Shown here piece after piece: positions 10,040 to 55,782 of a stretch of 64,000 nt of DNA. Numbering within the stretch: the first letter of the stretch is position 1; every line of letters begins with the position of its first letter. Location: assembly GCA_026018925.1 (NCBI GenBank), contig JAKSZU010000012.1, positions 25,843,814 to 25,907,813 on the forward strand, given 5' to 3'. The stretch is from Tupaia tana (Eukaryota; Chordata; Mammalia; Scandentia; Tupaiidae). The notes below the pieces were generated by a model. That model searched no databases, was not told the DNA's origin, and saw only the letters and a program-made list of their open reading frames with translations. Both the position numbers and the translations under genes were made by a program.

Positions 10040-10987
10040 ATGCTACCTCATAACAACAGCTCCCTCCCTGCTGAAGTCTCCGAATTCCTCCTGAACTGCT
10101 TTGTCAGGTCCCCCAGTTGGCAGCACTGGCTGGCTGTCCCTCTTGGCCTCCTCTTTCTCCTGGCCATGGGGGCCAACACCACCCTGCTGATCACCATCTG
10201 GCTGGAGGCCTCTCTGCATGAGCCCATGTACTACCTGCTCAGCCTTCTCTCCCTGCTGGACATTGTGCTCTGCCTCACCGTCATCCCCAAGGTCCTGGCC
10301 ATCTTCTGGTTTGACCTCAGGCCTATCAGTTTCTCTGCCTGCTTTATTCAGATGTTCATCATGAATAACTTCTTGCCCATGGAATCGTGCACCTTCCTGG
10401 TTATGGCCTATGACCGTTACGTGGCCATCTGTAAGCCTCTGCATTACTCATCTGTCATCACTGGCCAGTTTGTAGCAAAGGCTGCTGTCTTCATCCTGAC
10501 CCGGAATACATTTCTCACTGCACCTATACCCATCCTCTCTGCCCGCCTCCACTACTGTGGAAAAAACATAATTGAGAACTGTATCTGTGCCAACCTCTCT
10601 GTATCCAAGCTCTCCTGTGACAATGTTACCCTGAACCGAATCTACCAATTAATTGTGGCCTGGACTCTTCTGGGCTCAGACCTCATCCTCATTTTCCTCT
10701 CCTACACATTCATCCTCCGAGCTGTTCTTAGACTCAAGGCAAAAGGGGCAGCAGCCAAAGCTCTGAGCACTTGTGGCTCTCACTTCATCCTCATCCTCTT
10801 CTTCAGCACCATCCTGCTAGTTTTTGTTTTTACCCATATGGCAAAGAAAAAGGTTTATCCTGATGTCCCTGTCTTACTTAATGTCCTACACCATGTAATT
10901 CCAGCAGCTCTAAATCCCATTGTTTATGGGGTACGAACCAAAGAAATTAAGCAAGGGATTTGGAAACTACTAAGGAGGGGTGGATGA
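10040..10987 (+). CDS. OR56A: Class I olfactory receptor, OR56A family (receptor 1)
   Basis: Odorant-binding G-protein-coupled receptor expected in the cilia membrane of olfactory sensory neurons, where ORs signal through G-alpha-olf and adenylyl cyclase. The frame is intact, 315 residues, the usual OR length. Seen: two overlapping N-glycosylation sequons at N5/N6; TM1 with the GAN motif (N46); LHEPMYYLLSLLSLLD at 59-74, the class I form of the IC1/TM2 motif; conserved C101; MAYDRYVAIC at 122-131 at the end of TM3; extracellular loop 2 cysteines C173, C181, C183, C193; KALSTCGSH at 240-248 in TM6; NPIVYG at 292-297 in TM7. The start is the first ATG after the acceptor and gives the short glycosylated N terminus of the family. 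It differs from the other three receptors (KPLHY after the DRY motif, RNTFLTAPIPILSARL in TM4/loop 2, WKLLRRGG tail). As I recall the human proteins it lies between OR56A1 and OR56A3; exact orthology needs a tree. Confidence 0.97.
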   Translation: MLPHNNSSLPAEVSEFLLNCFVRSPSWQHWLAVPLGLLFLLAMGANTTLLITIWLEASLHEPMYYLLSLLSLLDIVLCLTVIPKVLAIFWFDLRPISFSACFIQMFIMNNFLPMESCTFLVMAYDRYVAICKPLHYSSVITGQFVAKAAVFILTRNTFLTAPIPILSARLHYCGKNIIENCICANLSVSKLSCDNVTLNRIYQLIVAWTLLGSDLILIFLSYTFILRAVLRLKAKGAAAKALSTCGSHFILILFFSTILLVFVFTHMAKKKVYPDVPVLLNVLHHVIPAALNPIVYGVRTKEIKQGIWKLLRRGG

Positions 10988-15879: not shown

Positions 15880-16164
15880 GAGGGAAGTACACATATGCTA
15901 TAGGTAACATTATTTTTGGTAATAATAAATTATAGGGCAGGTGGGTGTTGACTACTTAAATAATAAGGTATAATGCACATAATGGAAAGAATAAAATTGA
16001 CTTTATATAACAACATGATATTTATATAAATTCAATATTCAAGCAATTCTCTTATAAATGCCTAAATACTTAAAATTTAAGGGACAAATTTAAGAATACC
16101 AGAGTTTTCATTTTTCAGAAGTGAAGTGAAATGGAAGAATGCTGACATTGGCAGAAAGGGATAT

Positions 16165-16262
16165 AAAAATAAAGGAAAAGAAGGACCATTTATAATTGTA
16201 TAGCTTCAGCAAGCAGGAACTTTTCCATTCCTCTCTCCTTGTAACCTTGAGAAATTTGAGAA
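16165..16262 (-). promoter_or_regulatory. Relic copy of the OR promoter, inverted
   Basis: Read on the minus strand this matches the promoter of receptor 4: ACAAGGAGAGAGGAATGGAA, AAGTTCCTGC, CTGAAGCTATACAATTATAA, then ATGG. The TATAAA equivalent is at 16094+ (16189-16194). The exon/donor region downstream is degraded: no GTAAGT is found about 71 bp from the TATA. No receptor lies downstream on the minus strand. This is an inference from alignment by eye. Confidence 0.6.
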
Positions 16263-16561
16263 TGATTGTTTCCATAACTTGAGGAATGTGAATAAATCAC
16301 TTGAAATTCCAAACAAAAATAAAAATAAAAATAAAGGAAAATTTTAGGTTTTATATCTAGTTATATTAAAGTCATGCTACAGCAAAAATTATTATAGGAG
16401 TTTTTCCCCTATAAAATGCACTGGGTTTTCTCAGTAAGATTTTGTTCATTTTTTTCTTGGATCTTCATGTGATAAAAGTCATGATTAGTTACCCTAGATC
16501 CACTGAACAGCATGGTTTGAGCAGTATCTCACTAATAAGCCTGTGCAGGAAACCCTCAAGA

Positions 16562-16835
16562 TTTTTTTCTTTTTAAGAGAGAGATTTTTGCTATAGGGTG
16601 TTTGTACTCACCAGAGAGACAGAGAAAGACAGAGAGAGAAAGTGAGAAATCACCCCCCAGGGTGTTGGCCATGCCTCAATCTCTTTTCCTTTATTTTCAA
16701 CTCTCAGGATTTTGGGCATGCACGCACACACACACACACACCGTGCATGAGTTTGATCCACTGTGTCTGAGACTTGAACTGTGGTCCACTATACGGGAGT
16801 CTAGGCACATAACCATTACTCCATCTACTGGTCCC
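16562..16835 (-). mobile_element. tRNA-derived SINE with (CA)n
   Basis: Antisense SINE carrying a (CA) expansion at about 16726-16741. The duplicated flank ACCCTCAAGA is found at both ends. Confidence 0.92.
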
Positions 16836-17059
16836 ACCCTCAAGAATGTCTGAGTGAGCTTCTTGGATCCATAAAAAGTCTTGCATGTGCTAATGAGTAT
16901 GAACATATATAGATGTGTATGTAAGAGAACTGTATCCAGGAGACTGACTTATGCCTGCAGGACACACAGTCAATGGAGAACTGGATTGCTAAGGGTGTTT
17001 CCCTTCAGAAAGAAAATCCTTTTCTTTTTCCATCTGCCTGCCTGTCTTTCTCTGGGGAG

Positions 17060-17110
17060 ATGGAGAAGTTCCCAGAGGGTATGCTTTCTGAAGCTCTCCA
17101 GTTATAAATG
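17060..17110 (+). promoter_or_regulatory. Candidate promoter of receptor 2
   Basis: TATAAA at 17103-17108, preceded by GTTCCCAGAGGG at 17068-17079 (O/E-like but not a perfect EBF site). Both are conserved at matching spacing upstream of receptor 4 (54974-54979 and 55002-55013, minus strand). Conservation in an inverted paralogue is the main support. Binding and use are inferred. Confidence 0.6.
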
Positions 17111-17132
17111 GCCCAGATTCTTTTGGAACTAA

Positions 17133-17179
17133 TCATTATCCAGTGTACTCAGACCCCATGCTTCACATCCTTGGTAAGT
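17133..17179 (+). other. Candidate non-coding 5' exon end and splice donor, receptor 2
   Basis: The exon would begin about 25-30 nt after the TATA and end at 17173. The donor GTAAGTGAG starts at 17174, 71 bp after the TATA start. The paralogue upstream of receptor 4 keeps CCAGACTTCATGCTTCAC and the donor GTAAGTAAG at the same spacing. The intron would run 17174-19536 (about 2.4 kb) to the acceptor before the coding exon. Confidence 0.55.
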
Positions 17180-19220
17180 GAGCATGGGTAGACGGTGCTG
17201 AGGGTTGGCTATAAGAAGATCAGCCAGAGACTGAAGAGATCTTTCCCTCCAGGGCTTTCTGTTCTTTCTATTCCTGGGTCAGTACTGCTGAAGTAGTTCC
17301 AAACAGGCATCATGTGGATGGTACCCCATCTCGGTCAGGAGGCACATATGAGAGCTTGTGCTCTGGGTCATCAATCTTTTCCTTCCTTGGTGCTTGGTGT
17401 GTCATAATGGCAGAGAAGCCGAGGTTTGTGCATAGGAGCTTGTTGGGTAACTGGGGAGCTAGAACATGCACCATCTGGAAACCAGTTAAGAAAATCTCAA
17501 GTTTTCAGCTATGAGTATAGAAATGTAACATCTTTAGAACAAAGGATTTGCCTATACATGCTTGATTCATGGGGCAGGAATTAAATTTAGTCTGTAAAAT
17601 TTTAGAGGTTGGAGACAAAAGTCCACACTTATGGGGCCAGTTGGAGTCAGGAAATAGCTCAGAAGATTTTAGGTTGATCTAAAGAACTGATAAGTTATTT
17701 CTGCCAAAACCAGACAATTATGTCCAGAAAAGCAATGCACTACCTGTTCACAAGATGACTCACAGTACATATGGGAGACATGTCACCATCTCTCTGAGTT
17801 TTCTGAAGTTAGGTGATTTTTAATAACCCTTCCACTTTTTAACACAGGGCTTCTTTGGTACTGTGCTGTGGGCCTATTCTGCAGGTTGGGGAACAGATTG
17901 CACTGCACGTCTCTTGTTTTTGTTTTTGACCTTCAATTCTCCTGACTTCCTCATCCTGGAACCAGAAGCCATCGGCTCCAGGTCCTCAGTCTATTGGCCA
18001 TCACTGACTGCAGACCAGGAGTGAAAGAGAAAAGGAGAAAAGAAACTGAGATGGGAGGGTGGCAGGTTTACAGTTATGATATAATAATAATTAAAAAATC
18101 AGAGGATATGGCTATGGAATTAAGTTTGCAATCACTATCGAACACTTAGAGGGGTTCTTTGACAACTCAGGGGAAGAAGACTTTTAAAACCTTCATCTTT
18201 AATGTAAATGAGGAAACTACTTATTTGCAATTATTTTTCTCCAGCCTAACCCTCACTGCACAGTTAGATCTCCTCATAGTCTCGTAATAATTTGCACATG
18301 GCCCTCTCATTGCTCAGATTACTTGTTCTTATTACACATCATCCCCATAGTGGTTATAACTGTACTTCCTTGAGAGTGAGAACAGTTTCTTATTCAATTT
18401 TGTAACCCTAGTATGGAGCAAAATGCCAGAGGAAACAATTAAAAGAGAAGAGAATGATAGTAATATTCAACTACTCTAGAGATTGTCAAATGGGTACCTG
18501 GATCATCATATTTAAGATGAAAAAGGGAAATGGGAAAAGGATGGAAGGACTTGAAAGGTGAAATTCATTACCTACCTCTACACTAATACAAGAAAAAATA
18601 ATATTTCATTTTGTTTAGTGATAAGCATTGCTCTCTCACAGAGGAAGTGCCTTTTAAATTGGTTTCTTCCAGAGGTTAGGAATCCTACAAATATGAAGGT
18701 CATTCTAAGAGATAGAGAGAGCCAGTACCTTTCAAGTGAAAATGAATCTTTACTTAAAATTAGCAACCTTTCTTTTCAGTGTATAATAAATAGTATTCCC
18801 ATTTAAAATAAAATAAACACAGACAAAGGCCAAAACAGGGGTGGCATGGAGACTAGGGACATTTATTTGAGTCTCTTATTTATGCCAGGCTCTACTAGTT
18901 ATTTGGGTGTATTAAAAAAAAGAACACAAGTAGAAAAATGTACTGGTACACAGCTAGCGTCTCACTTGTCATGTGAAAAAAGTTTTCAATGAGACTTCTT
19001 TCTTTTTAGTTTCCATAAAAACATAACAATGTCATTGAAAATAAACATTGAAGAAATCAAACGTGTAGATATAACATGCCACCCCAGACCTTCATAATGT
19101 TTACAGTGATAAACATAGCTCAGTAGCATGACAATGAGGATAAAGAGAGAAATTCATTTATCTCCAGATAACCTATCAATATCCACAACTCATATAGAGA
19201 TAAAGCAAATTGTTCTGTTT
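17180..19220. other. Putative intron of receptor 2, duplicated elsewhere
   Basis: Segments match the region upstream of receptor 4 in inverted orientation: 17180-17720 with about 54890-54400; 17990-18030 (GCAGACCAGGAGTGAAAGAG) with about 53630; 18590-18760 (GATAAGCATTGCTC) with about 51400-51560. No coding frame of note. Confidence 0.6.
18230..18430 (+). mobile_element. Probable L2/MIR-type relic
   Basis: CTTCCTTGAGAGTGAGAACA followed by a stretch resembling the L2/MIR 3' block (TTTGTAACCCTAGTATGGAG). Weak, boundaries uncertain. Confidence 0.35.
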
Positions 19221-19476
19221 TTTCTTTTTTTACAGAGGTTTTTACTATAGGATGTGTGCACTTGCCAGAGAGACAGAAAGACAGAAAGCAAATAAAAAAC
19301 ACTCTCCCTGATGGGGGGGAATGGTCATGCCACAGTCCCTTCTACATTCTCTTCTTGGGATTTTGGGCATGCAAACACATATGCCTGGTGTGAGTTTTAA
19401 ATCACCAGGTCTGGGACTTGAACCATGGTTGAGTATGTGGGAGTTCAGTAATGTTCTATTATTCCATCTGCTGTTC
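19221..19476 (-). mobile_element. SINE in the intron of receptor 2
   Basis: Antisense copy, moderately diverged, flanked by AAATTGTTCTGTTTT and AAATTGTTCAGTTTT. It lies about 100 bp before the coding exon and is absent from the same place upstream of receptor 4, so it is younger than that duplication. Confidence 0.9.
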
Positions 19477-19519
19477 CAAATTGTTCAGTTTTATGTATCT
19501 AGAGTTAGTAACTAATTTT

Positions 19520-19536
19520 AAACTCTAAATTCACAG
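19520..19536 (+). other. Candidate splice acceptor of receptor 2
   Basis: TCTAAATTCACAG ends at 19536, with 36 nt to the ATG. The polypyrimidine tract is poor, but the exon side aligns with that of receptor 4 (AGCACTAAAAAAAGTTCTA versus ATCATTCAAAGAAATTTCTA). Confidence 0.45.
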
Positions 19537-19572
19537 AGCACTAAAAAAAGTTCTAAAAATTCATGGCAAACT

Positions 19573-20520
19573 ATGACAGCACACCAAAATGGCACCATTT
19601 CCATTGAGGTTTCAGACTTCCTTCTGAACTGCTTTGTCAGATCCCCCAGGTGGCAGCTCTGGCTGTCCCTACCCCTCAGCCTCCTCTTCCTCCTGGCCAT
19701 GGGAGCCAATGCTATTCTCCTGACCACCATTCACCTGGAAGTTTCTCTGCATCAGCCCATGTACTACCTGCTCAGCCTCCTCTCTCTGTTGGACATGGTG
19801 CTCTGCCTCACGGTCATCCCCAAGGTCTTGGTCATCTTCTGGTTTGACCTCAGGCCCATCAGCTTTTCTGCCTGCTTCCTCCAGATGTACATCATGAATT
19901 GCTTCCTTGCAATGGAGTCCTGCACATTTATGGTCATGGCTTATGATCGCTATGTGGCCATCTGCCATCCACTCAGATACCCGTCCATTATCACTGACCA
20001 ATTTGTAGTCAAGGCCGCCATCTTTATTTTGGCCAGGAATGTTCTTTTAACTGTACCTATCCCCATTCTCTCAGCACAACTCTATTATTGTGGCAGAAAT
20101 GTCATTGAGAACTGCATCTGTGCAAATATGTCAGTCTCCAGGCTCTCCTGTGATGATGTCACCATTAATCGCATTTACCAATTTGCTGGAGGCTGGACCC
20201 TGCTAGGATCTGATCTCATCCTCATCTTCCTCTCCTACACCCTCATACTTAGAGCTGTGCTGAGACTCAAGGCAGAGGGTGCTGTGGCCAAGGCCCTAAG
20301 CACATGTGGTTCTCACTTCATCCTTATCCTCTTCTTCAGCACTATCCTTCTGGTCTTTGTCCTTACACACGTGACTAAGAAGAAGGTCTCCCCCGATGTG
20401 CCAATCTTGCTCAATGTCCTCCACCATGTTATCCCTGCAGCTCTTAACCCCATTGTTTATGGGGTAAGAACCCAAGAAATCAAGCAAGGGATCCAGAGAT
20501 TACTGAAGAAAGGGTGGTAA
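19573..20520 (+). CDS. OR56A3: Class I olfactory receptor, OR56A3-like (receptor 2)
   Basis: Intact 315-residue odorant receptor, presumably a G-alpha-olf-coupled receptor of olfactory cilia. Seen: N-glycosylation sequon N6-G-T; TM1 GAN motif; LHQPMYYLLSLLSLLD at 59-74; MAYDRYVAICHPLRYPS from 122; loop 2 cysteine pattern (YYCGRN...CICANMSVSRLSC); KALSTCGSH in TM6; NPIVYG in TM7; C terminus QRLLKKGW. The N terminus (FLLNCFVRSPRWQLW) and the ICANMSVSRLSCDDVTIN loop resemble human OR56A3 as I recall it. Receptors 3 and 4 are near-identical through TM2-TM4 and TM6-TM7. They differ mainly in TM4/loop 2 (here VLLTVPIPILSAQLYY), where ligand-specificity differences would be expected. The start is the first ATG after the acceptor; an ATG 10 bp upstream (19563) is out of frame. 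Among OR56A3 copies the one-to-one orthologue cannot be chosen from this window. Confidence 0.97.
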   Translation: MTAHQNGTISIEVSDFLLNCFVRSPRWQLWLSLPLSLLFLLAMGANAILLTTIHLEVSLHQPMYYLLSLLSLLDMVLCLTVIPKVLVIFWFDLRPISFSACFLQMYIMNCFLAMESCTFMVMAYDRYVAICHPLRYPSIITDQFVVKAAIFILARNVLLTVPIPILSAQLYYCGRNVIENCICANMSVSRLSCDDVTINRIYQFAGGWTLLGSDLILIFLSYTLILRAVLRLKAEGAVAKALSTCGSHFILILFFSTILLVFVLTHVTKKKVSPDVPILLNVLHHVIPAALNPIVYGVRTQEIKQGIQRLLKKGW

Positions 20521-22046
20521 TAAAGGCAACTAGATCTCTGAATTTCTAAAATAGGATAAAGCTTTGAATAACTTTTGGGTGAGTGAGTGAAACTCATATG
20601 TATAACTTGTATTCTCAAACTGTATGAACTAGAAGTTGTACATTTCCTAAAACTTAAGTTTTATTTTAATTTTTTCTTTCTTTCAGTCCTCCATCAGGAA
20701 AATCCTTGATCCTTTCTTCTTTTTTCCCCATGCTTATGTCTAAAATATGGAGATCCCTTAACAAACTCTCTAGTGAGAAATTTATGTTTCTGAATAAACT
20801 ATTAGTTTATTATAAATTTTGTAGTCTCAAAATATAATTGTGGGTATTTTATGGGTTGTGTTGTCTGTATGCTTCTTGTCTTATTTACACAGAAGAGCGT
20901 ACGTTGGAGAAAAAGACCCTGGCATTGAAATATCAGTTCTGAATGATGGAAGGTTGCTACTGGTCTGCTGTTAGGTCTTTTTATTTCATCCTTCTACTTT
21001 ATTATTGTTTCTCCCTATCTCTGCCATTCTTTTTTTCTCTTTTTCTAGATCAGACAACTGTACTTTTGTACTGTGAATTATAAGAGGGGGATTTTTTTTC
21101 CTTTATTGTTTTTGTGTGTAATAAGTATCAATAAATTTTATTAGATATGAGAGATACCTAGGTCTTCCTCCCCAAGATTTCTGTACTTAGAAACAATTTT
21201 TTTGGATCCAGGATCTCACAGTTCATTGTGTACAAACCTAGCTCTGTGATGAAGTTAAGGGTTGTTAGGATTGTAATATATGATCCCAGTAATAATAATG
21301 AAATAATAAATAGACTAACTGAATTTTATTTTCTTATTAATTGGACAGTTTTTAAATATACATTATGTCAGTTATTAAGAAGCAAAGTAAATAGAATAAT
21401 GTTATTGCTTTGGTGAGTTTGGCATTTGATTAGGAAAAATCCAAATATATACTTCTCAACTGGAGAGCAATGAGCAATGGAATAGGCACCTTTAAGCACA
21501 GCAAGATTCTAGGTGACTGAAGAAAGCACTAGAACGTCTGGGTAGGAAGCATGGCACAACTCCAAAAAAAATAATAGAAGGTTGTGTTTCTGGAAATAAA
21601 TCAGGTGGTTTCCCTGTGTTCCCTCTTACTCATATATTATCTGAGAAGATCCAATATTTCTTTTTTTTTTGAAGATCCATTCTAGATAAAATACATTTTC
21701 CTCAATAACAACTTTTAAGTATGTTTACTTTGTTTTGATCATGCAAAGTAAATCTCTCAATAGACAAATAATACTGTCTCCAAAGTCTGGGTCTTTTCAT
21801 CCTGTACTGAAATCACTTGGGGTTATACCCTGGCCTATTTAAGCTTAGATTCTGTAAACTCTTTTTCTTCTTCATCTTGCAGTAAAAAACAATAAATTAA
21901 ATCTCATTTCTCTACCTCTGGATATACCATAAGTAACATCTGGAATCATAAGCATCCATTTACATAATAAAAAGCAGCAATTAAAACATTTAACCAGCAT
22001 TTTAATTGTAAATTTCTCAATAGTGAAAAATAATGTGCTAAAATCC

Positions 22047-31290: not shown

Positions 31291-31299
31291 TAATTTGTG

Positions 31300-33374
31300 A
31301 GTGAACTTATTTCATGCTTAGTGAACCAACTATATGACTGCTCCTATGTGTGAGAATATATGAATGTACTTGTAAGACCTGGATATTCAAATAAATGATA
31401 TATTGCCCACAGCTCACATAGGCAATATAGCATGCATAAGTTGAGACCTCCAATAGCTGTTTTTCTCAAATTAAAGCACATTCTCTTCCCTAATACATGC
31501 CTCTATGTTCTGGGAAGTTCTAGCAGTAATACTATTCCTTAATTGTACCTCCTACCAAAGGGAATAGAAATGATCACATTCCCATAGGGCAAGTGCTTGA
31601 GGCCACTGAGGTATTATGGACTTCAATATAGTAGACAGACACCAACGGGTCACAACTCCAAGACGGGTAGAGCCAGACCCATCCACTGCCTTCCCTGAAA
31701 GTGAGTCTAGAGAGGGAACCTGGGAAGGGGATGAAGGAGAAAATTCTCAGATCAGCCAGGTGAAGAGGGAAACCCTACCTTCAGTCCAGGAACTGAGGCA
31801 AGACAGCCTTACAGTCTCAGGTTTTTTCATGCCAAATTCTGGCTCTTACTATAGAGGAATATTGAAAGAGAAAGAGAAATTTGCATATCAAAGTGTTTAT
31901 ACCCTAGAGTTGACTAGATATCCAATACATACTGAATAAATTATTGAGTAAGAGAAAGGAGACAAAATGGAGTGGGGAAATCAAGAACAACAACATAAAA
32001 AAATAAACACTGAAAATACGATGGAGAATTTTTCTTGGTGTGCTCCAGAAATTCTATCCATTTTTTGGAAATAAACTTTTGAAGGTCATCCAATAAATAA
32101 AATGAAGTAAATAAATTTTCCTCTTCTTTTAGGTTTCCTTATGGATCCTCTTTCTTGCAACAAAGGTACATCCAGGTGGCTGGACCCGTCAGAAATCAGT
32201 CAAGGATTCTTAAGCCAACTTGGCTATGGTGAGCTTTGGTGCTGTTCATTTTAAGAATGAAGTGATGTAATGTTACATAAAGGATGAACAGAGGAAGAGC
32301 TGATAAAGTCCAAATGACAAAATGTGATGTAGGGAAGTAGTGTCAGAATCTGACAACCTGAAATTCACATTTGCTGTGGGTGGGTCCGACCAATGGTAAC
32401 AGGGACAGTTATAGTAGAGAATCAGTAAGTTTCTAGCAATGCCTGACCAAACTTTTGAATGTGTATGTGGTAAATGGAAAAATCAAGAGAGACAGGGCCA
32501 TCCAAATGTTACATGCAGTACTAAGTACATTGAGAAGTTGTTTTGGTCACCACATCAGACCTGGAAGCTATGATCAAGGATTACTACAGTAAGACATCCA
32601 CCACATCAGCACTCCCAACTACTAAAACCTATTCCTCCAAATTAAGCACCAGATTTATCAAGCAAAAGATATTGAGACTGTGTGGATGGGTGATGGTAGT
32701 AGAGGCATCAAGGAAAAAAGTTTTGTCAGCAGAAATATAGATATACACATATCTTTATCTTTTGCTTCCAGAGAGAAAGAGGCAGTGCCTGAGAGATACT
32801 AATAAATTAGAATCCACTTGATTTTAAAACAGAATGAAGAAAGAATTGAGGAAGGGAGGAGGGTAATTTCCATTATCTCACACTTACACAGTCATTCCAT
32901 GGGCTACTTAATAAAGTTGAGGTCTAAGAAAAAATAAAGTCAGGAGTGGAAGTCTGGGGGGGGGGGGGTCAGGTCACACAGAGAAGAAAATGAATGTGCC
33001 ATTTAATAGGTATATCAAATTAAAATCTTCTTGAAAGATATTTTCAGTTCTGGGTTTGTATTTGAATTAAAAATTATTTCCTATCTTTTAGCCATCCTTC
33101 CAAAAATACCACTTTATAACTGCATTTAACTTCCAAAATTTTTCATTACTCGAAGGGAATAGGTTTATTCTTTTAAAAAAGATGAGGCATTAAATACAGT
33201 ATCAAAATATGACAGTGACTGGAGTACTCCAGAGACTATCAAATCAGTGCTCTTTTGGCAAATAGACATAGTATAGCATAAGTAACTAAGAATTGGATTT
33301 GAAATCAAATTGAACTGTTTAGATTGAAGGTTATCATATGTGGTATTGGAATTTCCTTATTTACCTTATTGCCC
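31300..33374. other. Non-genic stretch upstream of receptor 3
   Basis: No repeat recognised in most of it. It contains a 13 bp G run near 32956-32968 and a 107-codon open frame described separately. Confidence 0.4.
31616..31939 (+). other. 107-codon open frame of unknown status
   Basis: Hydrophilic predicted product rich in E, S, R and T, with no signal peptide, membrane segment or motif I recognise. It is not inside a SINE or L1. The local base composition is less AT-rich than its neighbours. It could be a chance frame or an old exon fragment, and I would not annotate it as a gene. Confidence 0.12.
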
Positions 33375-34336: not shown

Positions 34337-34780
34337 TTGTTCCTTCCTTGACAGCAAGAACAGTATTTAATATTTGCATTCCTAAAATACAAAGAGTGAG
34401 TAAAAGGCAAATAAGGAGAAAAGAGTGACAATACAGAATACTATCTATTGTGAGAACTGGGGTCATTATCTGTAACTGGGCAAAGAGATTCATTAAAGAT
34501 CAATCCTGTTGAAATCAGAGGGCCTATTTTTATCACATTCTTCAATGGCAAGAGCACTTCCTCATAGCTAATTAAAACTGCACATTTTACTTTATATAAT
34601 TATTCTATCAGAAATTATACATACCACAGGCATGAAGAGAGACAGAAGTTTAGAGATTAAAATGGATTGATTTTGTCAATGTAGCAAGTAAAATCTCTAG
34701 TTATAACAAAGCAACCTGCTGTGAAAAAAGAAGTTTCTTACAATGGAAACTTTGTATATACTAAGTCAAAAGCTAATTTG
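34337..34780. other. Upstream flank of receptor 3
   Basis: AT-rich with no repeat recognised. I could not find the TATA/GTTCCCAGAGGG promoter block shared by receptors 2 and 4 here or further upstream. Confidence 0.35.
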
Positions 34781-34796
34781 TATCTTAACTTTTTAG
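34781..34796 (+). other. Candidate splice acceptor of receptor 3
   Basis: TATCTTAACTTTTTAG ends at 34796, giving 37 nt of 5' UTR before the ATG. The exon start ATCACCAAAGG aligns with ATCATTCAAAG of receptor 4. Confidence 0.55.
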
Positions 34797-34833
34797 ATCA
34801 CCAAAGGAAAGGTGTAGATACAAAATTGCCAAG

Positions 34834-35775
34834 ATGGCATCTTACATGAATGGCTCTACTGAGGTTACAGACTTCCTCCTGAATTGTTTTGTTCGGTCTC
34901 CCAGTTGGCAACTCTGGCTGTCCCTACCCCTCAGCGTCCTCTTCCTCCTGGCCATGGGGGCCAATGCTATTCTCCTGATGACCATCTTCATGGAAGCCTC
35001 TCTGCACCAGCCCATGTACTACCTGCTCAGCCTCCTCTCCCTGCTGGACATAGTGCTCTGTCTCACTGTCATCCCTAAGGTCTTGGCCATCTTCTGGTTT
35101 GACCTGAGGTCTATCAACTTCTATGCCTGCTTCCTACAGATGTACATTATGAATTGCTTCCTTGCAATGGAGTCCTGCACATTCATGGTTATGGCCTATG
35201 ATCGTTATGTGGCCATATGCCATCCACTCAGATACCCATCCATTATCACTGACCAATTTGTAGTCAAGGCAGCCATCTTTATTTTGACCAGAAATGCACT
35301 TCCTACTCTATTTGTTCCCCTCCTCTCTGCTAGACTCCATTATTGTGGTAGAAATGTCATTGAGAACTGTATCTGTGCCAATATGTCTGTGTCCAAGCTC
35401 TCCTGTGACGATGTTACCATCAATCGCCTCCTCCAATTTGCTGGAGGCTGGACCCTGCTAGGATCTGACCTCATCCTCATCTTCCTCTCTTACACCCTCA
35501 TACTTCGAGCTGTGCTGAGACTCAAGGCAGAGGGTGCTGTGACCAAGGCCCTAAGCACGTGTGGTTCCCACTTCATCCTTATCCTCTTCTTCAGCACCAT
35601 CCTTCTGGTCTTTGTCATCACACATGTGGCTAAGAAGAAGGTCTCCCCTGATGTGCCAGTTTTGCTCAATGTCCTCCACCATGTTATTCCTGCAGCTCTT
35701 AATCCTATTGTATATGGGGTAAGAACCCAAGAGATCAAGCAAGGAATCCAGAGATTACTGAAGAAAGGGTGGTAA
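34834..35775 (+). CDS. OR56A3: Class I olfactory receptor, OR56A3-like (receptor 3)
   Basis: Intact 313-residue receptor, two residues shorter at the N terminus than its neighbours (sequon N6-G-S). All OR landmarks are present: GAN in TM1, LHQPMYYLLSLLSLLD, MAYDRYVAICHPLRYPS, the loop 2 cysteines, KALSTCGSH, NPIVYG, and the tail QRLLKKGW identical to receptor 2. It shares AMESCTFMVMAYDRYVAIC and PSIITDQFVVKAAIFIL exactly with receptor 2. TM4/loop 2 diverges (ALPTLFVPLLSARLHY), as does RSINFYACF at the start of TM3 (RPISFSACF in receptor 2). Identity concentrated in blocks suggests recent duplication with or without gene conversion. Function, odorant detection in olfactory neurons, is inferred from the family. 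Same strand as receptors 1 and 2. Confidence 0.97.
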   Translation: MASYMNGSTEVTDFLLNCFVRSPSWQLWLSLPLSVLFLLAMGANAILLMTIFMEASLHQPMYYLLSLLSLLDIVLCLTVIPKVLAIFWFDLRSINFYACFLQMYIMNCFLAMESCTFMVMAYDRYVAICHPLRYPSIITDQFVVKAAIFILTRNALPTLFVPLLSARLHYCGRNVIENCICANMSVSKLSCDDVTINRLLQFAGGWTLLGSDLILIFLSYTLILRAVLRLKAEGAVTKALSTCGSHFILILFFSTILLVFVITHVAKKKVSPDVPVLLNVLHHVIPAALNPIVYGVRTQEIKQGIQRLLKKGW

Positions 35776-44197: not shown

Positions 44198-44876
44198 GTC
44201 CTCAATAATTTCTTTTATCAAAAAAATAATTTCAAAGGCTCCTCTAGATATAATAAATAATTCTGTAACATGTACTTGCCCCATAGATCATATAAAAATA
44301 GAAACTTCATCCATGAGACAGCAAATAGTTTTAAATGAGAATCTGTTAGAGTAGGCATAGTTTTGGGATGTGAACAGGATAACAAGGAAGAAAGTTGTAA
44401 TAAAACCCAGAATTGTATGATATTTCAAATTGATAGAAACAAGCTTTTGCAGAGTTTTGAAGAGTATATGGTTGTTTGCAGTCATGTCTTTCCTTTTCCA
44501 ACTGCAGGTGCAGTCCTGCTTAGCTGATTACTCTCATTACCCCAAATCAGAAAGACTCTGTTAGGATTTGACTGCTCTCAGTGAAGAGAGAACAGGAATT
44601 CCTCCTCCAGGGCTCTTTTCTCTACACCTTCTGATACTCTGCTCCGTAAGTGAGTCTTCCCAGTAGGGCCTGGTATGGAGAAGAGATTGAGATAATTTCT
44701 CAGTTCTCTTTCCCTTGGTAATGAAGTGTGTTAGTAAGATTTTTGGAAAATTCAATATGAGCTTTAAACATACTGTTCCATTTGTGATTCACAGTATCTG
44801 AAGTAGGAAGAGTTCTCTATTTTAACAATTTATCTTTTGCGTGGGCAAATTAAAATTTGTTAAGATTGCATGTACT

Positions 44877-45296
44877 GGGGCCAGAAGATGCCATGGTGGT
44901 TAAGGTGCTGGACTCCCACATGGCTGACCATGGTTTGAGTCCCAGACATAGCAGCTTGGTTTCTCACTTCCTTTCTCAATGGTGAGTCCATTGAGCTACT
45001 CTATAGCTATAGGGCGCATGCGCTCGCCAGACGGACAGAGAGACAGAGAGATAGAAAGAGAGAAATCACCCCACAGAAGGGATGGCCATGCCACAATCCT
45101 TTCTCCTCCATTCTTCTCTCGGCATCTTGGGCACGCATGCACACGCGCCCAGCGTGAATTTAAGCCACCGGGTCCGGGACTTGAACTGCGGTTGACTACG
45201 TGGGAGTCCAGCAACATAGCCATTACACTAACTGCTGTTCCCCCCACATACTCTATAGCAAAGTAAAAAATATAATAAAAATAAAATTTAAAAAAA
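44877..45296 (+). mobile_element. SINE interrupted by a second SINE
   Basis: Sense head GGGGCCAGAAGATGCCATGG (44877) to CTACTCTATAG at 45006. An antisense SINE intervenes, and the end resumes at 45249 with TACTCTATAGCAAAG and an A-rich tail. The core of the host SINE is partly deleted. Confidence 0.85.
45008..45248 (-). mobile_element. SINE nested in a SINE, lacking its A tail
   Basis: Antisense near-consensus copy beginning directly at CTATAGGGCGCATGCGCTCG with no poly-T. The 11 bp repeat TACTCTATAGC lies at 44997-45007 and 45249-45259. Because the host SINE end and the guest 3' end share CTATAG, the tail may have been lost or priming may have been internal. Confidence 0.85.
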
Positions 45297-46424
45297 TGAT
45301 TGTTAAACAATAAAAGTTTGCATATATTTCCCATAGTTTAACTGGTGCATTCCAAATGGGGAAGAAGTGAATGTCTAAATAATTTCTTCAGTTCCATGAC
45401 CAGAGAAAATATGAGTATACCTGTGCCCTGTGTCACCACAGACTAGAAGTATATATATAATTTGTCTTTTGTTCTAGATGTTTTTAGATATCTTTTCTTC
45501 AATGTTCTCCATCCCCCAAGGACACACAATTCCAATGACAATTTTATGAAAATCTGGTATTTTTTTTTCTTTTCCAGAGATAACAAAGTATTCTAGAATG
45601 TATTAAGGATCTTTTGCTGGGAAGGAGAGAGAACCTTGAAATGAGGTTTGGAAGGCTGAGCCAAATGATAGATGTGGTAGTTCACATTTAAGTATCATAG
45701 GGAATCATAGAGCAAAAGAACCCTAAAATGCTTTGAGATATTTTTATTTAGCCACAGGATGAGAATTCTAAGGATTACACAAGAGGATTGTTTTATCTTC
45801 TTCCTTTAGTTGCTGATGCTCTTTCTGTTCTTTTCTCTGGAATCTCCTTGTGAATTCTTTTATCATAATTTATTCATCAAATATTGAACAATCTGCCCAG
45901 TTCTAGATGCAAGGCTCCTGAGAACACAGTTGTTCTCTTTCATTCTTGATTTGCAGCCAGAACTTGCCAATGGCAGCCCCAGGGCTGAGGCCCTGGAGGT
46001 AACGGTTCTGGCTCTAGCCAGAAATGAGAGTCAGAAAAGTTGAAGGTAAAAGACAAAGCAGAGACCTCAGCTCAATCCTTTTCCCAGGCTGCATGATTGA
46101 CCTGCAGCAAAGTACCCTAAAAGCTCTGTTACTGCAGGATTTCAGGACTCTATGTTGTAAAAGGCAATGAATAAAACTTCTTTTTAAAAATTTTCTCACA
46201 TTGGTATTAAAGATTTATTAGTGATGTCATGCAACATTTAGAATAAAACGTTATTATTCTTCCTCTAAAACTCTGACTTTTTTGATCCATTTGGCAAAAT
46301 ATAGAAAAGAGAGAAACATTACAGCCCAGAAAAAAAGAAAAATATAACTCTTTTTCTAGAAGTATGTGTTTACTTCAATTAACTTTATTTTCTGTCTTGA
46401 TTTGTGTTTAAAAGCAAATATCTA

Positions 46425-49589: not shown

Positions 49590-50537
49590 TTACCATATTT
49601 TGCTCAGTAATCTCTGGATTCCTTGCTTGATCTCTTGGGTTCGCACCCCATAAACAACCGGGTTAAGAGCTGCAGGAATGACATGGTGGAGGACATTGAG
49701 CAAGATTGGCACATCAGGGGAGACCTTCTTTTTGGCCACATGTGTAAGAACAAAGACCAGAAGAATGGTGCTAAAGAATAGAATAAGGATGAAGTGGGAA
49801 CCACATGTGCTTAGGGCCTTGGCCACAGCACCCTCTGCCTTGAGTCTCAGCACAGCTCGAAGTATGAGGGTGTAGGAGAGGAAGATAAGGATGAGGTCAG
49901 ATCCTAACAGAGTCCAACCTACACCAAACTGATAAAAACGATTAATGGTGACATCGTCACAGGAGAGCCTAGAGACTGACATATTTGCACAGATACAGTT
50001 CTCAATGACATTTCTGCCACAATAATACAGTTTTGCTGAAAGAATGGGGATAGGCATAGTTAAAAGAGCATTCCTGGCCAAAATAAAGATGGCGGCCTTG
50101 ACTACAAATTGGTCAGTGATGATGGACGGGTATCTGAGTGGATGGCAAATGGCTATATAGCGGTCATAAGCCATGGCCATGAATGTGCAGGACTCCATGC
50201 CTAGGAAGCAATTCATGATGTACATCTGGAGGAAGCAGGCAGAAAAGCTGATGGGCCTGAGGTCAAACCAGAAGATGACCAAGACCTTGGGGATGACAGT
50301 GAGGCAGAGCACCAAGTCCAACAGTGAGAGGAGGCTGAGCAGGTAGTACATGGGCTGATGTAGAGAGGCTTCCAGGTGGATGGTGATCAGGAGAATAGTA
50401 TTAGCTCCCATGGCTAGGAGGAAGAGGAGGCTGAGGGGCAGGGACAGCCAGTGCTGCCAACTGGGAGACCTGACAAAACAATTCAGGTGGAAGTCTGAGA
50501 TCTCAGTGAAGATGGTGACGTTTTGATGTGCTTTCAT
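49590..50537 (-). CDS. OR56A3: Class I olfactory receptor, OR56A3-like (receptor 4)
   Basis: Intact 315-residue receptor on the opposite strand to the other three. N-glycosylation sequon N6-V-T; GAN in TM1; LHQPMYYLLSLLSLLD; MAYDRYIAICHPLRYPS (I for V in the DRY region); loop 2 cysteines in YYCGRN...CICANMSVSRLSC; KALSTCGSH; NPVVYG in TM7 (V for I). Private changes are FHLNC for FLLNC near residue 17, LGMESCTFMAMAY before the DRY motif, and the tail QRLLSKIW, which lacks the KKGW end of receptors 2 and 3. TM4/loop 2 (ALLTMPIPILSAKLYY) is closest to receptor 2, as are the upstream promoter and intron. So receptors 2 and 4 are an inverted duplicate pair. No disabling change is seen. The role as an odorant receptor is inferred from the family. 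Confidence 0.97.
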   Translation of the reverse strand: MKAHQNVTIFTEISDFHLNCFVRSPSWQHWLSLPLSLLFLLAMGANTILLITIHLEASLHQPMYYLLSLLSLLDLVLCLTVIPKVLVIFWFDLRPISFSACFLQMYIMNCFLGMESCTFMAMAYDRYIAICHPLRYPSIITDQFVVKAAIFILARNALLTMPIPILSAKLYYCGRNVIENCICANMSVSRLSCDDVTINRFYQFGVGWTLLGSDLILIFLSYTLILRAVLRLKAEGAVAKALSTCGSHFILILFFSTILLVFVLTHVAKKKVSPDVPILLNVLHHVIPAALNPVVYGVRTQEIKQGIQRLLSKIW

Positions 50538-50574: not shown

Positions 50575-50590
50575 CTGTAAAATTAGGATT
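50575..50590 (-). other. Candidate splice acceptor of receptor 4
   Basis: On the minus strand AATCCTAATTTTACAG ends at 50575, 37 nt before the ATG. The exon side ATCATTCAAAGAAATTTCTA aligns with receptors 2 and 3. Confidence 0.55.
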
Positions 50591-50961
50591 TAAAATTAGC
50601 TACTGAATCGAGGTATGTTAAAGCAGAGTGATTTGCTTTATCTAAGTGCAACTTGTGAATTCTAGTAGTTTATTTCAAGCCAAGGGAAATGATCTTTTTG
50701 CTCTCGATATCATGCTCTAAGAAATTTGTATTATCACTGTAAAGAGTATAGAAAACTGAAGTGATATATTGTATTTACACATATTTGATTGGCTCAATAT
50801 TTATTTTAAATTCAATTCCCATGTCTTTACAGAAACTAGAAACGAGGAAACTACATAGAAAAATACTACTTTTGTGTAACAGAATAGATTCTAAATGTGT
50901 AATTGTAAGATTTTTGCCTTTTCTATGTTGTAATCTGCTTTTAAAGTGTTTTTTGTTTTTG

Positions 50962-54136: not shown

Positions 54137-54897
54137 TGCTTTCTGGTTTTAACCAAGGACAGGAAACAGTCAGAAAAGCTGAAGGACAAAGACTAAAGCA
54201 GAGATCTGCAGCCTAATCTGTTTCCAAGGCTACAGAACAGGCCTGCAGCAAAATATGAAAAAGCTCCATATTAAGAAGTGGAAGAGCCATTAGGAATCAC
54301 CAAACATGGAACTCAGAGAGACCTAAGGGACAACTCCCTCAAGTGTACTTTGAGCTAGTTCATTGCTTTCTGAGGCAGAATTTTCTTATTTTGGCAGAAG
54401 TGACTTTCAGCAATTGTTTAGGTTGACCTAAAATCTTCTGACCCACAGTGGTTCCTAACTGTGATCTTTGTTCCCAGTATCTGAAATTATACAGACTAAA
54501 TTTAATTCCTTCTTCATGATTTAAGTACTTACAGGCAGATTCTTTGTTACAGATTCTAAATTTCAATATTTATATATGAAAACTCTGTATTTCCTTACTT
54601 AGGCTCCAGATGATGCACTTTTAGCCCCCCTGCCATCTATCAGTCTTCTATGGACAAATTTCAGCTTCTCTGCATTTATGGCGGCACTGAGCACCCAGAG
54701 AAGGAAAAAGATAAAAGGCTCTCCCATGTTTTTTTTGACCTGAGATAGCTTGTAGTCCCCAATATACTTGTTTGAGGCTACTTTAGCAGTACTGACGCAG
54801 GAAGGGAAAGGAACACAGATTGGAACTGAAGAGATAAGTCTCTGCAGTCTCTGGCTGACTTTGTTATAGCCACCCTTTGTTATCTCTGGCTAGTCTT

Positions 54898-54948
54898 ACT
54901 TACTGAGTGAGTGAAGCATGAAGTCTGGTGTCCTGGTGCTGGATATTG
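54898..54948 (-). other. Candidate 5' exon end and splice donor, receptor 4
   Basis: Donor GTAAGTAAG begins at 54903 on the minus strand, 71 bp after the start of the TATA-like box. The preceding ACTTCATGCTTCACTCACTCA matches the exon end of receptor 2. The intron to the acceptor at 50575 would be about 4.3 kb, lengthened by L1, MITE and SINE insertions. Confidence 0.55.
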
Positions 54949-54973
54949 GTTAGTTCCAGAGGAGGTGGGTCAG

Positions 54974-55013
54974 TTATAATTGTAGAGCTTCAGGGAGTTT
55001 TCCCTCTGGGAAC
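54974..55013 (-). promoter_or_regulatory. Candidate promoter of receptor 4
   Basis: TTATAA at 54979-54974 (TATAAA in receptor 2) and GTTCCCAGAGGG at 55013-55002, the same order and spacing as at receptor 2. The near-palindrome TCCCTCTGGGA is Olf/EBF-like, with one extra central base. Confidence 0.55.
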
Positions 55014-55250
55014 TTTTCCATCCTTCTTTCCTTGTCACCACAATGCCCTCCTGGGACAGACAGGCAGGCAGATGGGAGAAGAAGATTCATTTCTTTCTTT
55101 CTTTTATGGATTGCCAGAAACTTAGCCCTCCATTGATTAGGTATCCTAGCAGAGAGCCAGTATTCTGGATACAGTCATCTTACATACACATGCATGTATG
55201 TTCATACTCATTTGCATTTCCAGAACTTTCTATGGATCCATAAGCTGACT

Positions 55251-55782
55251 CAAAAATTTTTGTGGGCTTTCTACATATACTAAGTGTAAGTCCGAAGCAT
55301 GTTATTCAGTGGATTAATTTTAACTTATACTCACTTTTATTATGACATTAATTATAATTTAAAGAATGTTAGAGAAAATACTGTGTGTTTTCCAGAAGAA
55401 AAACTTTTACAATAACTTTTGCTGCAGTGAGATTTTAGTATAACTGAATAATATGACACCTAACTCCTTTTTATTTTTAATTTTGTTCAACCTCATGTGA
55501 ATTATTTGCATTCCTCAAGTTAGAGGAACAAGCATTCTCAATTTCTTCAAGACCTTTTTTTTGCTTTTATTTTATTCCTCCTTGTGCATATTTCAACTTT
55601 CCTCCTATTTCTCTTCATAAAAATGAAGACTGTAGTATACTTAAGACATATCTTTCTAATAAATTTTTAGTATGTAGGCATATTCATTTATGAGAGAATT
55701 ATTATGTATTAAATATTTATAAACATCATCAGGTATTAAATCTGATGTTATTCTGTATTTTTAGCCAAAACTATATCTTTTC
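55251..55782. other. Non-genic AT-rich stretch
   Basis: No gene or repeat recognised. Confidence 0.4.

Follow-up and report, generated by a model that had tools for sequence, protein, structure and literature searches.

A probable core promoter and short non-coding first exon of an OR56A3-like olfactory receptor gene, copied within an inverted duplication

We propose that the segment lying upstream of an OR56A3-like class I olfactory receptor (OR) coding exon is probably the core promoter and short untranslated exon 1 of that gene, and that it was copied together with the gene by an inverted duplication. This reading is favored by a perfect O/E site, by the rare combination of O/E, TATAAA and a splice donor, and by homology upstream of a third receptor, in which a donor occupies the aligned place. 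The window analysed, i.e. the whole stretch of 64 kb, contains four intact OR open reading frames (ORFs), which we call R1 to R4:

10040-10987, plus strand: R1, ORF from the ORF list
19573-20520, plus strand: R2, coding exon of a class I OR, OR56A3-like, 315 aa (ORF; Pfam 7tm_4, E 8.8e-74)
34834-35775, plus strand: R3, ORF from the ORF list
50537-49590, minus strand: R4, coding exon, 315 aa, the inverted paralogue of R2 (ORF, Pfam, inverted repeat with R2)

All four ORFs match the Pfam family 7tm_4 and are intact single-exon frames of seven-transmembrane ORs. The protein of R2 has 5079 relatives at E <=0.001 among the 7990 candidates scored, and many of the best 120 are mammalian proteins named "olfactory receptor 56A3" or "56A3-like", with identity of up to 91%. 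The neighborhood of the four genes is rich in repeats that we label SINE-like and L1-like (our own naming). Between R2 and R4, dN is 0.040 versus a dS of 0.311; by codons, dS is 0.17-0.18 in 64-189, 0.30 in 190-252, and 0.44 and 0.50 at the two ends. R2 and R3 exhibit a dS of 0.37, though their introns scarcely align, and the coding exons 19573-20520, 34834-35775 and 49590-50537 are more alike than their surroundings, a pattern suggestive of gene conversion in the coding exon.

The elements upstream of R2 are the following:

17048-17058, minus strand: O/E (EBF) site TCCCCAGAGAA, perfect against the consensus core TCCCYNGRGAR (motif scan)
17068-17079, plus strand: GTTCCCAGAGGG, weak O/E-like element (strict core, two mismatches; loose pattern YYYCARRRR, fits)
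17103-17108, plus strand: TATA box TATAAA (word match), with a predicted start near 17133
17133-17173, plus strand: predicted non-coding exon 1, about 41 nt (from the TATA spacing and the donor; 5' end inferred)
17174-17179, plus strand: donor GTAAGT (TTG/GTAAGT), score 8.2

The start of R2 near 17133 is placed by the usual spacing between a TATA box and the start site. This prediction is weakened by a review of OR promoters, according to which the positions of TATA boxes match OR starts poorly (PMC5318403). The strict O/E core was derived from the consensus given in PMC3247239, and the loose pattern was taken from PMC5638857. The perfect site, which stands 45 bp before TATAAA and within 200 bp upstream of the predicted start near 17133, as is typical of mammalian OR promoters, had not been named in the preliminary description of this locus. 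That description had regarded GTTCCCAGAGGG as the O/E-like site; it does fit YYYCARRRR, a pattern with 159 occurrences in the window, but its two mismatches to the strict core led us to demote it from main O/E site in favor of 17048-17058. The donor at 17174 is the top scorer of the interval 16600-19536, in which two donors reach 7; all splice scores are rough, as the matrices are built from approximate human frequencies. Homeodomain words occur in R2 (TAATGA at 16891 on the plus and 17133 on the minus strand) and in R4 (TAATTG at 54977 on the plus strand); the word TAATKR has 186 occurrences in 64 kb. Around the site, to a distance of about 250 bp, the G+C content of 50-bp windows ranges from 0.34 to 0.54. 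The best kept upstream stretch in the comparison of R2 with R4 is 16857-16940 (83.1%), which is partly retained in R3, including the shared TGTAAGA, and is a possible upstream regulatory element.

The inverted counterpart in R4 comprises these elements:

55046-55056, minus strand: counterpart of the R2 O/E site, TCCCAGGAGGG, two mismatches
55002-55013, minus strand: GTTCCCAGAGGG (word match)
54973-54978, minus strand: TATA-like box TATAAC (word match)
54898-54903, minus strand: donor GTAAGT (TCA/GTAAGT), score 4.9

The mirror-image block reported upstream of R2 and R4 is indeed there: GTTCCCAGAGGG occurs in the 64-kb window only at 17068 (plus) and 55013 (minus), the spacer is 23 bp in both copies, and GTAAGT follows at 17174 and 54903. 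Other parts of the description do not hold. A TATA box had been assigned to both genes, and R2 has TATAAA at 17103, but R4 reads TATAAC at 54978; the donor, said to begin exactly 71 bp after the TATA box in both, does so in R2 and lies 75 bp after it in R4, with indels between. An alternative R4 donor, GTAAGA at 54899, overlaps GTAAGT and also scores 4.9. Within 54895-55270 nothing better than two mismatches to the strict O/E core was found; matches of that quality occur several times in each 330-380 bp scanned, and loose YYYCARRRR sites are present.

The conservation of the block between R2 and R4 had been offered as the evidence for a promoter, and this argument fails. The interval 16837-17967 aligns end to end with 55266-54141 at 71.2% identity (768 of the 1078 ungapped columns), and other stretches of homology occur from 15958/55786 to 20551/49559; they include 15958-16567, 18590-18888 and 18911-19221 on the R2 side, and the inverted repeat 19543-20551 reaches 90% over 1009 nt. 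The block thus forms part of an inverted duplication of several kilobases, and its likeness in R2 and R4 is explained mostly by shared ancestry. The identity of the block 16990-17180 is 69.5%, and 70.5% of the 191-column alignment windows equal or better it; for the 46-bp core 17066-17111, which reaches 80.4%, windows that do as well make up 12.5%. The identical run of 14 bases that holds GTTCCCAGAGGG is one of three 14-mers, and longer runs of 21, 18, 16 and 16 bases occur elsewhere. Because the identity of the block does not exceed the 71% of the duplicate itself, the likeness of R2 and R4 alone predicts no promoter, and we dropped it as functional evidence. The promoter with its non-coding exon nonetheless stands as the most likely reading, with its support coming from other features. 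An exact-pattern search for the core in prokaryotic contigs returned no matches, as expected.

The perfect O/E core has four matches in 64 kb, two of which form one palindrome, where 10 random sequences average 1.5; the palindrome, TTCCCTGGGGAA, lies at 2350-2361, some 7.7 kb before R1. The pair of TATAAA and a subsequent donor of at least 8 is found nine times, with 7.7 expected. For the combination of a perfect O/E site, TATAAA and a donor of at least 8, spaced at set distances, the window has a single instance, in R2, whereas the mean over 80 random sequences is 0.025. This figure is to be read as that of a post hoc test, designed once the site had been seen; at the initial donor threshold of at least 9 the window contains no such combination, the donor of R2 scoring 8.2, and the thresholds used thereafter were 8.0 and 4.8.

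Further support comes from the more diverged receptor R3:

31292-31787, plus strand: region homologous to the promoter and first exon of R2 and R4 (nhmmer E 5.4e-8)
31701-31706, plus strand: donor AAA/GTGAGT (score 8.4), located where the alignment puts the donor, with a shift of 4 nt relative to GTAAGT of R2

The homology extends over about 500 bp, 3.0-3.5 kb before the ATG and in the correct orientation. Its E-value compares with a best of 0.92 in the reversed-window control, and its score of 24.2 with a maximum of 0.4 in shuffles, none of 400 reaching it; likewise none of 400 other pieces of the window reach it (maximum 1.0), and only 23 of them obtain any score at all. A donor of at least 8 would arise by chance within 11 positions, as at the aligned place in R3, with a probability of about 0.006. 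The aligned place lacks TATAAA, and no O/E match within one mismatch of the strict core was found in R3. Profiles of the R2 and R4 introns gave no match in R3 above the inclusion threshold; a profile of the acceptor piece matches 34763-34820 at E 0.027, and pairwise comparison detects weak collinear pieces of the R3 intron that match R2 and R4 (E 0.002-0.22), so that retention in R3 is not surely confined to the promoter. The region upstream of R1 had no match to the three-copy promoter profile up to E 20 or to the long profile up to E 5, and matched the first profile only at E of at least 26.

On the 3' side of the putative intron, all four receptors have an AG at nearly the same distance from the ATG (38 nt in R1, 37 in R2, 38 in R3 and 38 in R4), with acceptor scores of 10.3, -3.2, -0.2 and -1.0, respectively. 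The predicted acceptors of the duplicated pair are:

19535-19536, plus strand: R2, AG 37 nt before the ATG, weak (-3.2)
50575-50576, minus strand: R4, AG 38 nt before the ATG, weak (-1.0)

The recurring position of this AG, strong in R1, where its score is equalled by only 6 of 8494 AGs, also counts in favor of the promoter reading. Scores as good as those of R2 and R4 are attained by 25% and 14% of AGs, respectively. Stronger acceptor-like sites lie upstream, at 19235 in R2 (10.3, close to where a SINE-like repeat begins) and at 50737 in R4 (4.8; the R2 counterpart at 19106 scores 0.7). The two-exon gene models of the preliminary description, with acceptors at 19536 and 50575, are therefore possible, but the exact junctions of R2 and R4 are uncertain. 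Taken as features of an intron in the 5' untranslated region, the donor is good in R2 and R3 and weak in R4, and the AG 37-38 nt before the ATG is weak in all three. Upstream ORFs are present in the predicted leaders. One has its ATG at 17158 of R2, and R4 offers a counterpart to it. Another ATG, 10 nt before that of the receptor, opens an overlapping ORF of 14 codons in R2 (19563-19607, MANYDSTPKWHHFH) and in R4 (50547-50503, MSNYESTSKRHHLH).

In the scenario that we favor, EBF would bind the site 17048-17058 of R2, and perhaps also the weaker adjoining element 17068-17079, while the TATA box at 17103 would set initiation near 17133. The primary transcript would then measure at least 3.4 kb, and its splicing from 17174 to an acceptor ahead of the coding exon, with 19536 the likeliest, would join the non-coding exon of about 41 nt to the leader of the coding exon. 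R4 and the more diverged R3 would have inherited the module by descent, with turnover of its elements: R4 possesses a weaker TATA box, O/E site and donor, and R3 retains the region and a donor, with neither TATAAA at the aligned place nor an O/E match within one mismatch. Factor binding, initiation, splicing and expression at R2, R4 and R3 are here inferred from the DNA sequence.

Against this reading speak the background-level identity, the weak elements of R4, the poor acceptors, and R3 without TATAAA or a strict O/E site. One rival view is that the likeness is only a residue of the duplication, with the true start and exon 1 of R2 and R4 located elsewhere and the O/E site, TATA box and GTAAGT together by coincidence. 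The block identity indistinguishable from background agrees with such a residue, as does the ordinary frequency of TATAAA followed by a donor, and TGTAAGA, farther upstream (16920-16926 in R2), is likewise common to R2, R4 and R3. Yet a perfect O/E site at the right place is rare, and R3 keeps both homology and a donor at this very place; we regard coincidence as rather unlikely. A somewhat better, though still minor, chance must be given to the promoter being correctly placed and the transcript using other acceptors or extra 5' exons instead of two simple exons. The upstream acceptors 19235 and 50737 outscore those adopted here, and mouse OR transcripts average 2.33 exons with frequent alternative splicing (PMC7055050); the AG shared by the four receptors, strong in R1, argues for the simple structure. 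It is similarly possible, if doubtful, that only the promoter of R2 works and that of R4 is decaying, leaving R4 weakly expressed or started elsewhere. TATAAC, the degenerate O/E site and the donor of 4.9 would fit decay, whereas the coding exon of R4 is intact, dN between R2 and R4 is far below dS, and R4 retains GTTCCCAGAGGG as well as the six intronic donor bases GTAAGT.

A promoter acting in both directions comes to mind in view of an additional, opposite-facing copy of the block:

16182-16246, minus strand: relic of the promoter block, inverted and 65 bp long, containing TATAAATGG and facing away from R2 (nhmmer E 9.3e-10)

Its match is significant, but the relic lacks 9 bases of the GTTCCCAGAGGG stretch, is followed by no donor of at least 4 down to 15900, and has no counterpart at the aligned place of R4; moreover, tblastn over the window outside the four ORs gives no OR match better than E 0.31 and none to the left of the relic on its strand. 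We consider a divergent promoter highly improbable. The layout of the relic is nearer to the R4 block, as it has the ACAAGGA stretch that is missing from the promoter of R2. Elsewhere, 44224-46129 on the minus strand is a remnant of the duplicon intron, represented by six pieces that align with the R4 intron (62.8-81.9%), and no significant OR coding match was found there; judged by its sequence, it is a fifth, gutted copy of the duplicon. At the place expected for such an intron-only copy, 47421-47363 (minus strand) is a candidate promoter relic, with BLAST E-values of 0.006-0.017 in the window; the profile search gave it no score.

The promoter that we propose for R2 is probably of the ordinary class I OR type, here OR56A3-like; a common promoter organisation of class I ORs is noted in a review (PMC1995454). 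O/E sites, TATA boxes and introns in the 5' UTR are all published features of OR genes, and R2 and R4 add another instance. In mouse (Young et al. 2011, PMC3247239), 246 of 314 OR promoters carry an O/E site in the 200 bp that precede the start, a TATA box is predicted at -60 to -10 in 39% of the 314, and recent gene duplications can take the promoter along. The proposed R2 promoter resembles these in its O/E site, its TATA box, a predicted start in an untranslated upstream exon and its inclusion in a duplication; it differs in that its start is predicted instead of mapped, and the R4 copy is without a strict O/E match. The local G+C content compares with a mouse mean of 36.4%, which refers to a different span, 4 kb (PMC3247239). 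The TATA box, which the preliminary description thought remarkable, is less so given the mouse figure, even if the review cited above describes OR promoters as mostly TATA-less and TATA positions as matching starts only loosely (PMC5318403). Barnes et al. (2020, PMC7055050) already describe short 5' exons that are non-coding and become joined to the coding exon by splicing, like the one proposed here. They also report upstream ORFs, which are present in 54.6% of protein-coding ORs in human and 86.1% in mouse; the exon average quoted earlier likewise refers to mouse protein-coding ORs. The R2 and R4 models differ in being predicted from the sequence. The construct of the class I Olfr544 promoter used with J-element transgenes (Iwata et al. 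2017, PMC5638857) includes about 40 bp of non-coding exon; this work supplies the definitions of the O/E-like and homeodomain motifs, although Olfr544 is a mouse gene and the J enhancer is the element to which those motif descriptions apply. Among the titles and beginnings of abstracts listed for OR56A (20 of 28 papers) and OR56A3 (10 of 10), the sole promoter work on a gene of that spelling concerns Drosophila Or56a, an unrelated insect receptor.

A further parallel is that of the V1R blocks (PMC1955453), in which promoter, untranslated exons and coding exon were duplicated together; most of these blocks are too young to reveal the constrained part, a limit that applies equally to R2 and R4, and in a single older case an island of about 500 bp remains some 3 kb upstream, though this mouse vomeronasal family differs from the ORs considered here. 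It is tempting, if speculative, to imagine in R2, R3 and R4 a similar promoter island of about 500 bp that is constrained while its parts turn over, with the donor slipping by 4 nt within GTAAGTGAG and the coding exons homogenised. If so, the strict O/E site would persist only in R2, the TATA box would have weakened in R4 and been lost in R3, and splicing would survive through the neighboring donor of the tandem site (AAA/GTGAGT in R3). The analysis also carries a caution, namely that conservation between paralogues in a duplicated block is not functional evidence unless it rises above the background of the duplicate itself. Three OR56A receptors, R2, R3 and R4, gain promoter and first-exon coordinates that can be checked, and comparison of R2 and R4 with the older R3 separates the promoter parts that last after a duplication from those that are replaced, which is a question of modest weight in OR regulation.
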